This document shows positions 7 to 2,048 of a stretch of DNA of 64,000 bases, in pieces. A model generated the notes under the pieces. The model was not told the DNA's origin. It did not search any database and worked only from the letters and a program-made list of their open reading frames with translations. The stretch spans positions 124,001 through 188,000 of the forward strand of contig NZ_CANLWM010000007.1 in NCBI RefSeq assembly GCF_947494875.1, in the 5' to 3' direction. The stretch's first letter is position 1. The number at the start of each line of letters is the position of its first letter. Made by a program: the position numbers and the translations under genes. The DNA comes from an uncultured Williamsia sp. (GTDB lineage: Bacteria > Actinomycetota > Actinomycetes > Mycobacteriales > Mycobacteriaceae).

Positions 7-59
7 GCGTTCCGGTGTGCGTACGTGTCGCCGAGCGACACGTACGCACACCGGAACGG
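7..59. terminator. Perfect 24-bp inverted repeat downstream of DAHP synthase
   Basis: Bases 8-31 and 35-58 are perfectly complementary around a 3-nt loop, ending 4 bases past the stop codon of the minus-strand DAHP synthase gene. This fits a strong terminator hairpin of the actinobacterial type without a U-tract. No T-run is visible on either side, so it could alternatively be a protein-binding palindrome or a bidirectional terminator. Confidence 0.6.
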
Positions 60-62
60 CCG

Positions 63-1157
63 TCACACCTCGGCGGTCCGATCCGCGCGGCGCGCCCGAC
101 CCGATCGTCGTGCGGTGGCGAGGTCGCGCAGGACGTCGACGGTCGTGTCGAAGTCCATGCAGGCGTCGGTCACCGACTGCCCGTAGACCAGCGGTCGCGC
201 CGACGGAGACTGCGCACCTTCGACGAGGAAGCTCTCGAGCATCACGCCCGCGATCGACGCGCTGCCTCCCGCGACCTGGGCGGCGACGTCCGCCGCGACC
301 ACCGGCTGTCGGCGGTGGTCCTTGCCCGAGTTCGCGTGGGAGCAGTCGACCATGACCCGAGCGGTGACCCCCGCCGTCGCGCACGCCGCGCTCGCCGCGG
401 CGACCGATCCGGTGTCGGCGTTCGTCCCGGACCGCCCGCCGCGCAGGATGACGTGGCAGTCCTCGTTGCCCACGGTCTCGACCACGGCGGCACGACCGTC
501 CTCGTCGACGCCGAAGAAGGTGTGGGCACCGGCCGCGGCCCGGACGCCGTCGATCGCCGCCTGCAGGTCGCCGTCGGTGCCGTTCTTGAAGCCGATCGGC
601 ATCGACAGTCCCGACGCGAGCTGCCGATGCACCTGCGACTCGGTTGTCCGCGCGCCGATGGCACCCCACGCGACGGTGTCGGCGATGTACTGCGGACTCG
701 TCGGTTCGAGGAACTCGCATCCGATGGGCAGGCCGCGGTCGACGATGTCGAGCAGCAACGACCGCGCGGTGCGCAGCCCGCGCTCGATGTCATGGCTGCC
801 GTCCATGCCGGGGTCGTTGATGAGGCCCTTCCACCCCACCGTGGTGCGGGGCTTCTCGAAGTACACGCGCATCACGACGAGGAGGTCGTCCGCGAGATCC
901 CGCGCCTGGACCGCGAGTCGATCCGCGTAGTCGAGCGCGGCGGCGGGGTCGTGGACGGAGCAGGGCCCGACCACCACGAGCAACCGGTCGTCGCGTCCGG
1001 CGAGCACGTCGGCGACCTCGCGACGGTGAGCCGCCACGCGCGCGGCGGACCCGGCCGGCAACGGCAGCTCGTCGAGCAGTTCTCGTGGCCCGGGCAACGG
1101 GCGGATCCGCGCGACGCGGGTGTCGGTGACCGGGGATCGGTCCGAGATGACGGTCAT
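63..1157 (-). CDS. aroG: 3-deoxy-7-phosphoheptulonate (DAHP) synthase, class I
   Basis: This 364-aa enzyme would condense phosphoenolpyruvate and erythrose 4-phosphate in the first step of the shikimate pathway. It is of the AroF/G/H (type I alpha) class, not the type II class best known from mycobacteria. Visible family motifs are GPCSVHDP (64-71), KPRTTVGWKG (102-111), GARTTESQ (168-175), GFKNGTDG (189-196) and DCSHANSGKD (271-280), which together form the PEP, metal and phosphate sites. The length matches the family (about 350 aa). The ATG is preceded by GAAAGG, whose GG lies inside a 7-bp hairpin (1160-1185) that could hide the ribosome site. A 198-nt leader with a candidate aromatic leader peptide lies upstream, so expression is probably attenuated by aromatic amino acid supply. 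Isozyme letter (F, G or H) is not resolvable. Confidence 0.95.
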   Translation of the reverse strand: MTVISDRSPVTDTRVARIRPLPGPRELLDELPLPAGSAARVAAHRREVADVLAGRDDRLLVVVGPCSVHDPAAALDYADRLAVQARDLADDLLVVMRVYFEKPRTTVGWKGLINDPGMDGSHDIERGLRTARSLLLDIVDRGLPIGCEFLEPTSPQYIADTVAWGAIGARTTESQVHRQLASGLSMPIGFKNGTDGDLQAAIDGVRAAAGAHTFFGVDEDGRAAVVETVGNEDCHVILRGGRSGTNADTGSVAAASAACATAGVTARVMVDCSHANSGKDHRRQPVVAADVAAQVAGGSASIAGVMLESFLVEGAQSPSARPLVYGQSVTDACMDFDTTVDVLRDLATARRSGRARRADRTAEV

Positions 1158-1159
1158 GA

Positions 1160-1185
1160 GAGTGCCTTTCGTGGGGCGGGCACTC
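1160..1185 (-). promoter_or_regulatory. Hairpin sequestering the aroG ribosome-binding site, with an alternative partner
   Basis: On the minus-strand RNA, GAGTGCC (1185-1179) can pair with GGCACTC (1166-1160), which includes the last two bases of the GAAAGG Shine-Dalgarno sequence 2 nt before the aroG ATG. The same GTGCCC stretch can instead pair with GGGCAC at 1206-1201. The two hairpins exclude each other, as in a translational switch. Complementarity is read directly; switching is inferred. Confidence 0.5.
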
Positions 1186-1217
1186 GTCGTCTCACATCCG
1201 GTGCCCTGATGACAGGA

Positions 1218-1246
1218 AGAGCAGCGACCAAATCGGTCACTGCTCT
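1218..1246 (-). terminator. Terminator-like hairpin in the aroG leader
   Basis: In the minus-strand transcript, 12 bases at 1246-1235 pair with 1229-1218 (11 Watson-Crick pairs and one U-G) around a 5-nt loop, followed by UUCCUGU. It lies between the candidate leader peptide and aroG, where an attenuator would sit. The trailing tract is only moderately U-rich. Confidence 0.5.
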
Positions 1247-1249
1247 CGG

Positions 1250-1314
1250 GGCTCCGGGGAAGGTGTGGCGGCTACGTCCGGCGGGACGCTCCATCGTCGG
1301 CTCCACCCGGAGCC
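1250..1314 (-). promoter_or_regulatory. Mutually exclusive pairing segments of the aroG leader
   Basis: GGCTCC at 1314-1309 can form a 6-bp, 4-nt-loop hairpin with GGAGCC at 1304-1299. Alternatively GGCTCCGGG (1314-1306) is perfectly complementary over 9 bp to CCCGGAGCC (1258-1250), directly 5' of the terminator-like hairpin. The first segment starts five bases after the Phe codon of the leader peptide, so a ribosome stalled on the aromatic codons would cover it. This is the geometry of ribosome-mediated attenuation; which structure promotes read-through was not resolved. Confidence 0.45.
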
Positions 1315-1355
1315 TCGATAAAGCGCCAGCGATAGGCGCAGCCGGTGGTGATCAC
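1272..1355 (-). CDS. Candidate aromatic leader peptide (27 aa) for DAHP synthase attenuation
   Basis: A GTG-initiated 27-codon reading frame ends in TAG at 1274-1272, 114 nt before aroG. Residues 8-12 read Tyr-Arg-Trp-Arg-Phe, so all three end products of the pathway sit next to each other as potential stalling codons. A TAGCGT -10 box (1367-1362) lies exactly 6 nt before the GTG, so the mRNA would be leaderless, as for several other genes here. No Shine-Dalgarno is seen, consistent with that. It is too short to be judged by homology. A comparable leader (aroR) precedes aroF in Corynebacterium glutamicum, but the sequence here appears to sense Tyr and Trp as well as Phe. Alternative: chance ORF in a leader RNA. 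Confidence 0.6.
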   Translation of the reverse strand: MITTGCAYRWRFIEAPGGADDGASRRT

Positions 1356-1361
1356 GCACCC

Positions 1362-1367
1362 ACGCTA
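1362..1367 (-). promoter_or_regulatory. -10 box of the aroG leader promoter
   Basis: TAGCGT on the minus strand fits TANNNT and lies 6 nt before the GTG of the leader peptide. The start of transcription would then coincide with the start codon at 1355. No convincing -35 at 17-18 nt. Confidence 0.5.
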
Positions 1368-1529: not shown

Positions 1530-2048
1530 ATGCGCACTCTCTCGTCCCGTTCGCGTTCGCTGACCACCGCTGTCGGCTCGATGGCCGCCGCTGTCGCCGT
1601 CGTCGGTGTGACCCTGGGAGCGGGGGTCGCCGGTGCGGCGACCATCTCACCCGCCAACACCACCTTCACCGCGCCCGGCACGATCACGGTGACCACACCG
1701 GCGTCCTTCAACGTGCCCGTCACCTGCAACATCGTGTTCTCGGGGTCGGTGAACGCCGACGGGTCGGCGGCCACCATCACCGACGCGAAGGTCAGCGGCA
1801 GCAACTTCCTCTGCACCGTGCCGAAGATCCAGAACCTCCCCTGGACCCTGACGCCCACCAGCGCGACCACAGGCACTGTCTCGAACGTCGCGTTCTCGGT
1901 GCTGTCGAGCAACTGCGGACCGGCCACGCTGTCCGGCTCCTTCGACAACATGACGAACACGCTGTCGTCGTCGAACCAGTCGCTGTCGGGGAACTGCACC
2001 ATCAACAACCTGTCGGTGAACCCGAACCCGGCCTTCACCCTGTCCTGA
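1530..2048 (+). CDS. Secreted PraB-like protein
   Basis: A 172-aa protein with a typical Sec signal peptide: basic start, hydrophobic residues 15-34, and an AGA-type cleavage site near residue 36. The mature part is rich in Ser, Thr and Asn, with four Cys and a beta-rich, repetitive look. It resembles the family annotated as activator of alkane oxidation PraB (small extracellular proteins known from Pseudomonas growth on hexadecane and present in Rhodococcus-type genomes). This is recognition by sequence character, not by a defined motif, so the assignment is tentative. AGGAGGA at 1514-1520 fixes the ATG at 1530. It is monocistronic, closed by a strong hairpin at 2060-2095. No alkane hydroxylase is nearby. 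Confidence 0.7.
   Translation: MRTLSSRSRSLTTAVGSMAAAVAVVGVTLGAGVAGAATISPANTTFTAPGTITVTTPASFNVPVTCNIVFSGSVNADGSAATITDAKVSGSNFLCTVPKIQNLPWTLTPTSATTGTVSNVAFSVLSSNCGPATLSGSFDNMTNTLSSSNQSLSGNCTINNLSVNPNPAFTLS

Follow-up and report, generated by a model that had tools for sequence, protein, structure and literature searches.

A candidate ribosome-mediated attenuator with tyrosine, tryptophan and phenylalanine codons precedes the type I DAHP synthase gene of an uncultured Williamsia

We analysed a stretch of 64,000 nucleotides from an uncultured Williamsia sp. (contig NZ_CANLWM010000007.1, positions 124,001 to 188,000), hereafter called the window, near whose start a type I DAHP synthase gene, aroG, is read on the minus strand. 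The closest named matches of AroG come from Mycobacterium (69 % identity), Williamsia (68 %) and Dietzia (68 %). The genome has a single type I DAHP synthase gene and, elsewhere, a single type II gene, so that aroG specifies one of two entry enzymes. Directly past the aroG stop codon lies a perfect 22-bp inverted repeat (window 9-57, arms 9-30 and 36-57), which is possibly the aroG terminator and in which a clear U-run is absent. Upstream, aroG shares its intergenic region with a divergent ORF (window 1531-2048, plus strand) whose small product has an Ala-rich N-terminus resembling a signal sequence (MRTLSSRSRSLTTAVGSMAAAVAVVGVTLGAGVAGA...). The features of aroG and its upstream region are the following.

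63..1157, minus strand: aroG, type I DAHP synthase of 364 aa, from ORF reading (PF00793, E 6.5e-88)
1157, minus strand: start codon ATG of aroG, from minus-strand reading
1165..1170, minus strand: GAAAGG, the aroG Shine-Dalgarno sequence, from minus-strand reading
1198..1206, minus strand: segment D, GGGCACCGG, able to pair with C in a helix that encloses T, from the fold and a complementarity test
1217..1247, minus strand: terminator-like hairpin T, two nt past C, from covariation; weak U-run in this species
1250..1258, minus strand: segment C, CCCGGAGCC; A:C is the proposed antiterminator helix
1272..1355, minus strand: leader ORF MITTGCAYRWRFIEAPGGADDGASRRT, 27 codons with GTG start and TAG stop, from ORF reading; conserved in the family
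1274-1272, minus strand: leader stop codon TAG, from minus-strand reading
1287..1326, minus strand: hairpin P1, the proposed anti-antiterminator, in which the codon arm and A core (1326-1309) face B and the 3' arm (1304-1287)
1299..1304, minus strand: segment B, GGAGCC, from sequence reading and covariation of A:B
1306..1314, minus strand: segment A, GGCTCCGGG, shortly 3' of the aromatic codons; pairs with B or C
1320..1334, minus strand: codons TAT CGC TGG CGC TTT (Tyr 1334-1332, Trp 1328-1326, Phe 1322-1320)
1362..1367, minus strand: TAGCGT, a -10 box six nt 5' of the leader GTG (putative leaderless transcript), from sequence reading

The initial annotation had described a 27-codon GTG ORF with a TAGCGT box six nt upstream, encoding Tyr, Trp and Phe in alternation with Arg. 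Reading of the minus strand bore this out (ORF 1355-1272, box 1367-1362), and the ORF indeed encodes Tyr-Arg-Trp-Arg-Phe. The annotation had also made its proposal depend on conservation in relatives, and the leader is conserved. In a family sample, 170/201 genomes carried a type I DAHP synthase gene, and the upstream regions of 95 of these 170 were read; at all 95 family loci examined the gene was preceded by a short leaderless ORF in which two or more of six residues are aromatic. The reverse strand gave such an ORF in 0/95 cases and block-shuffled sequence in 16/950, which refutes a chance ORF in a GC-rich intergenic region, an explanation to which we assign practically no weight.

Named actinobacterial loci passed the same test in 24/31 cases; the ORFs of two that passed, L020 and L063, bear no resemblance to the leader, and L010 shows the leader by eye, without the box. 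The DAHPS gene was carried by 39/296 genomes of a phylum sample, and outside the family only 7/24 DAHPS loci of this sample had the leader ORF. The leader is thus present in several, not all, actinobacterial families. The phylum sample contains three non-family loci, L121, L125 and L126, with leaders such as ERFYYRF upstream of the DAHPS match; in L121 and L125, inspection by eye reveals a long helix resembling A:C directly beside a hairpin whose U-run is good.

Larger counts were taken over 142 loci (88 + 25 + 29) from several families, in which some genomes are counted twice and which yield 107 distinct peptides. A TANNNT box was located 6-10 nt 5' of a start codon at 142/142 loci and at exactly 7 nt at 108 of them; such a box occurs at an arbitrary position with a frequency of 0.46 %, although the choice among candidate start codons helps the box count somewhat. 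The transcript would be expected to begin at the leader itself. Leader peptides of the leaderless kind are no rarity in this phylum: 7/8 of those described in Streptomyces lividans are called so in the available text of PMC8079986. Codons for all three of Phe, Trp and Tyr were found before segment A at 126/142 loci, and F, W and Y occurred anywhere in the peptide in 95 of the 107 distinct leader peptides.

These peptides vary by branch (YWRF, YAYF, YPYF, YFWF, WRFYF), with the aromatic residues kept while the surrounding nucleotides differ. This persistence argues against a metabolite-binding riboswitch or a protein-bound RNA in which the ORF would be incidental, a reading that would suit the nucleotide conservation in A, B and C. 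The conserved start box speaks against it as well, as does the search of the window with Rfam 15, which at gathering score returned only two tRNAs and no matching family, and at a relaxed threshold a best match of E 2.9 on the other strand. We therefore consider such an RNA very improbable.

A covariance model built from the alignment described below found a single copy of the element in this genome and matched 50/296 class genomes. All 29 class loci examined lie before a type I DAHPS gene; 22 further places without a locus were left out. In a genus presumed to be of Corynebacterium type, the model matched in 19/201 genomes, with 15 of the 19 matches before the DAHPS gene and the four weakest elsewhere. 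The leaders before the gene contained R-F-Y-F in 15/15 cases, 12 of them as W-R-F-Y-F. None of the 201 genomes of this presumed Corynebacterium genus contained a 27-base stretch from C. glutamicum aroF, so that the C. glutamicum genome probably lies outside the sample.

Among non-actinobacterial loci, 13/49 had an aromatic-rich short ORF upstream (p<=0.05), including loci from Bradyrhizobium, Comamonas, Xanthomonas and others. Phe/Tyr/Trp-rich leader ORFs (e.g. FYFYFWF, SYFWYFSY) precede the proteobacterial type I DAHPS genes of L047, L051, L061, L065, L067, L071, L074 and L077. By eye, the leader end at several proteobacterial loci repeats part of the 3' arm of the following terminator, which has a good U-run; this repeat is shared with the classical attenuator.

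Codon choice sets the leaders apart from the gene that they precede. U-ending Tyr and Phe codons are almost absent from aroG itself: AroG genes of 55 loci used TAC 255 times vs TAT 4 times for Tyr, and TTC 419 times vs TTT 3 times for Phe. The leaders of the first 139 loci used TAT 60 times vs TAC 3 times, and TTT 53 times vs TTC 9 times. GC-ending codons made up 12/125 of the leader Phe/Tyr codons, 338/414 of the other leader codons before A, 372/606 of the codons after A begins and 15968/18040 of those in AroG, so that the inversion between leader and AroG is strongest for Tyr and Phe. Since TTT lies within the P1 stem, structure accounts for some of the inversion; the leader TAT lies outside P1. 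We infer from the inversion selection for slower wobble reading of the aromatic codons.

The annotation had further held that a segment just after these codons can pair with either the adjacent GGAGCC or a distant segment. This stood up in the comparison, in which A:B and A:C both covary; its suggestion to look for covariation of the stems was likewise rewarded, as A:C, the terminator hairpin and, less strongly, P1 covary. Loci were parsed by the presence of an exact six-base complement of A downstream, and at 87/91 parsed loci A:C was 9-16 bp long including G-U pairs, a helix that is partly selected for because parsing demanded the exact six-base core. Removal of L014, L094 and L177, which had been parsed with a wrong frame or a wrong C, left 88 loci. 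Six more with a hairpin >6 nt from C (L089, L166, L170, L172, L173 and L182) were excluded from the alignment, arm-partner and abutment tests.

An alignment of 65 of 71 chosen sequences had 95.6 % paired cells in A:C and the terminator hairpin together. Double changes occurred in 12/22 pairs, with 102 doubly changed cells vs 25.4 in shuffles, and all slid versions scored far below the true register. P1 also covaried above controls, more weakly than A:C and T, with 33 cells vs 11.0 in shuffles and 7 pairs with double changes vs 4.6 (19/500 shuffles reached 7). These covariation counts are inflated by relatedness; the changes nevertheless run across families. For example, the A/B core changes from GGCTCC/GGAGCC to GGCTCT/AGAGCC in loci named Arthrobacter and Catellatospora, and is of the CCGGCC/GAGCCGG type in the Nocardia/Rhodococcus branch.

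The terminator-like hairpin that the annotation had placed after the leader is present at 1247-1217 and belongs to the covarying part of the alignment. Its U-run is good in many relatives and poor in the window; in the Nocardia/Rhodococcus-type branch, a hairpin overlapping C is, by eye, mostly followed by no U-run. At 82/88 loci the hairpin begins at most 6 nt from C, and there its pairing probability was >=0.72 in every state. A comparison with shuffled sequence at these 82 loci revealed no better upstream partner for either terminator arm (T5 mean -9.5 vs -10.7 kcal/mol shuffled; T3 -13.2 vs -13.3). A hidden antiterminator partner of the arms was rejected on this basis, as the arms pair upstream no better than shuffles. 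Given the persistence of the hairpin and the lack of a competing upstream segment, classical terminator exclusion does not apply.

Instead, A:C and T adjoin. For this test, 111 elements were reduced to 60 non-redundant ones, of which 53 had a gap of 0-3 nt between A:C and T; with one mismatch allowed, the two overlapped in 18/60. The abutment count is conditional on a hairpin near C, which for the 29 added loci was sought only close to C. Forcing A:C lowered the mean probability of T's two basal pairs from 0.82 to 0.73 in 50 homologues, with a fall >0.3 in 5 of them; the basal-pair and Shine-Dalgarno tests used 50 of the 60, the other 10 being without a perfect six-pair A:B core. From this contact we suggest that A:C would lead to less termination at T.

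Constrained folding indicated how a ribosome may govern the choice between the two helices. In RNA ending before C, A was paired locally in 60/60 non-redundant homologues (mean 0.96). Once C was included, and in the absence of a ribosome, A:C prevailed in 38/60 homologues; in the window's own RNA, A:B prevailed (0.97). Stall folding was reported for codon positions with >=3 cases. A stall on Tyr (-20, -17) or Trp (-20, -17, -14) gave A:C >0.5 in 113/113 cases, and this held at each assumed footprint of 8, 10, 12 and 14 nt. A Phe stall at -8 (58 cases) gave a mean A:C of 0.83, 0.48, 0.14 and 0.00 at these four footprints, and a Tyr or Phe stall at -11 (13 cases) was intermediate, with A:C only with footprints up to +12. 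Refolding is thus robust for early stalls on Tyr and Trp, and Phe at -8 brings it about only with a short footprint.

This bears on the claim that the leader senses all three aromatic amino acids at once. All three residues do occur in the conserved leader; equal sensing fared worse, because a ribosome stalled on Phe at -8 masks A, and on the folding model the claim appears too strong for this species. A ribosome halted at the single Phe codon of this leader would sit on A, so that Phe starvation should have a weak effect in this species. L175, the sole Corynebacterium-type locus folded fully, has its first Phe at -14, and a stall there gives A:C, which fits the Phe response of C. glutamicum as reported in the accessible literature. 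In the Nocardia/Rhodococcus-type branch, at least one stall gave A:C >0.5 at only 3/25 loci and C:D was dominant in almost every state of these 25; given this dominance, equilibrium folding tells us little about a switch in that branch. A ribosome at the stop codon also favoured A:C at equilibrium (54/60). Together with the 38/60 seen without a ribosome, this means that the OFF state needs kinetics, and any model must meet the bias at the stop codon via release or kinetics.

The annotation had also placed two mutually exclusive hairpins in control of the aroG Shine-Dalgarno sequence. Such a translation-level switch would act as a relay of exclusive helices, A:B, C:D and E:F against A:C and D:E, that hides or frees this sequence. 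Complementary segments D, E and F do exist in the window, where GGGCAC/GTGCCC and GAGTGCC/GGCACTC lie near the Shine-Dalgarno, and C:D complementarity was enriched, reaching p<0.05 in 27/60 homologues vs 3/60 for a neighbouring control segment (p=0.129 at this locus). The Shine-Dalgarno region itself was only slightly more paired than shuffles, with the sequence hidden at p<=0.05 in only 7/48 homologues. Furthermore, its accessibility moved the wrong way: forcing A:C rather than A:B in 86 homologues (two of the 88 loci have no B) raised it by >0.1 in 9 and lowered it in 19, with a median shift of about 0 and a Wilcoxon p of 0.02 towards the wrong side. In the window, accessibility was 0.56 in both the A:B and the A:C state. 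These accessibility calculations lend no support to a relay via D, E and F, and we hold a translation-level switch to be quite improbable. Of the combined transcription- and translation-level switch that had been proposed, the attenuation signature therefore stands and the translation arm goes unsupported.

A conserved leader with three aromatic residues, two exclusive folds and a terminator-like hairpin together support the signature of ribosome-mediated attenuation. Judging from sequence and folding models, we think that the element is likely an attenuator akin to aroR in which the ribosome mediates control, with a transcript that starts at the leader start codon and an A:C helix that lowers termination. 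The mRNA would start at the leader's own start codon, and P1, made of A:B and the codon arm, would form while RNA polymerase makes the leader. With an ample supply of charged tRNA-Tyr and tRNA-Trp, the ribosome would run through, P1 would re-form behind it and C would stay free, so that the terminator hairpin could end transcription before aroG. A ribosome stalled on the Tyr or Trp codon would cover the codon arm of P1 and leave A free to pair with C. The resulting A:C helix would end against the terminator base and take or crowd its basal pairs, termination would be lowered, and aroG expression would be expected to rise on starvation.

Attenuation might also work otherwise than through contact of A:C with the terminator base. 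A:C could bring the stalled ribosome near RNA polymerase, with transcription-translation coupling carrying the polymerase through T, or Rho could be involved. In folding, A:C leaves T almost unchanged, and the abutment suggests that A:C draws the ribosome and T together; both would agree with such a route. The route is itself pure inference, however, and mutations at the base of the terminator in the similar ilvBNC attenuator of C. glutamicum raised valine synthesis about tenfold, according to the available part of PMC11857589; we regard coupling or Rho as unlikely. An attenuator in which A:C acts at the terminator base thus remains our preferred reading.

More tentatively, the element may be a position-coded, multi-input aromatic sensor that forms a common control of type I DAHPS in several actinobacterial families. 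Tyr and Trp stalls would free A and a Phe stall would mask it, giving unequal or opposite effects; U-ending wobble codons would tune the stall; and A:C would abut the terminator base without sharing an arm with it. We offer this wider reading as a possibility, with the odds rather against it. All three aromatic amino acids are made by way of DAHP synthase, and this entry step would be linked directly to its end products by a leader responsive to several aminoacyl-tRNAs. The natural leader variants may allow codon identity and position to be related to the amino acid sensed, and abutting helices as a means of antitermination can be studied here by comparison. Engineering of aromatic production may benefit as well.

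The nearest known system is the aroR leader of aroF in Corynebacterium glutamicum, reportedly the one described by Neshat et al. in 2014. Like the leader studied here, it is an aromatic leader peptide before a DAHP synthase gene (aroF) that is regulated by aromatic supply, as far as the accessible accounts go. Its motif is F-Y-F in the available text of PMC4046766, and a review, in its accessible portion, has aroF-operon transcription rise on Phe limitation (PMC11802643). In these accounts the motif is Phe-Tyr-Phe and the leader responds to Phe but not Tyr, and the published motif places a Phe earlier; the R-F-Y-F leaders found at the same place in all 15 Corynebacterium-type relatives match it. 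According to the part of PMC7356990 available, strain engineering for aromatic production in C. glutamicum has already included the replacement of aroR. The leader of the window, Tyr-Arg-Trp-Arg-Phe, differs from aroR in that it has Trp, carries Phe only at the masked position and contains no F-Y-F.

The trpL leader of E. coli is a trp-type attenuator. In attenuators of this type, including actinobacterial trpL as portrayed in the accessible text of PMC8079986, stalling on end-product codons selects the fold before the terminator, as proposed here; they serve one amino acid and their antiterminator overlaps a terminator arm, both unlike this leader.

Closer in architecture are the ilvBNC attenuator of C. 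glutamicum, whose three-helix topology was tested by mutation (PMC11857589), and the ilvB-II motif of Corynebacterium (PMC10272879). In the available parts of these two sources, the leaders carry several end-product codons and begin at the 5' end or right beside it, as here. Like the window, ilvBNC combines a local anti-antiterminator with a distant antiterminator that use one shared segment (here A), with adjoining helix bases. It differs in its branched-chain codons and in that its antiterminator and terminator share three nt, whereas the codons here are aromatic and the helices abut. By analogy, and from what these texts make available, we take ilvBNC as the best precedent for A:C possibly acting at the terminator base.

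A search of the open-access literature revealed no leader peptide with all three aromatics before a DAHP synthase gene, and none with the spread, the codon inversion or the position-dependent prediction described here. Neither aroG nor aroF is named in the accessible portion of Seliverstov 2005, which reports that Phe or Tyr operons of Actinobacteria are preceded by no conserved RNA structure (PMC1262725). A leader before DAHP synthase is already known from aroR, and three-helix attenuators with several codons from ilvBNC. What is new here, as we read it, is a three-aromatic form of the aroR kind of attenuator, absent from Rfam and distributed across several actinobacterial families.
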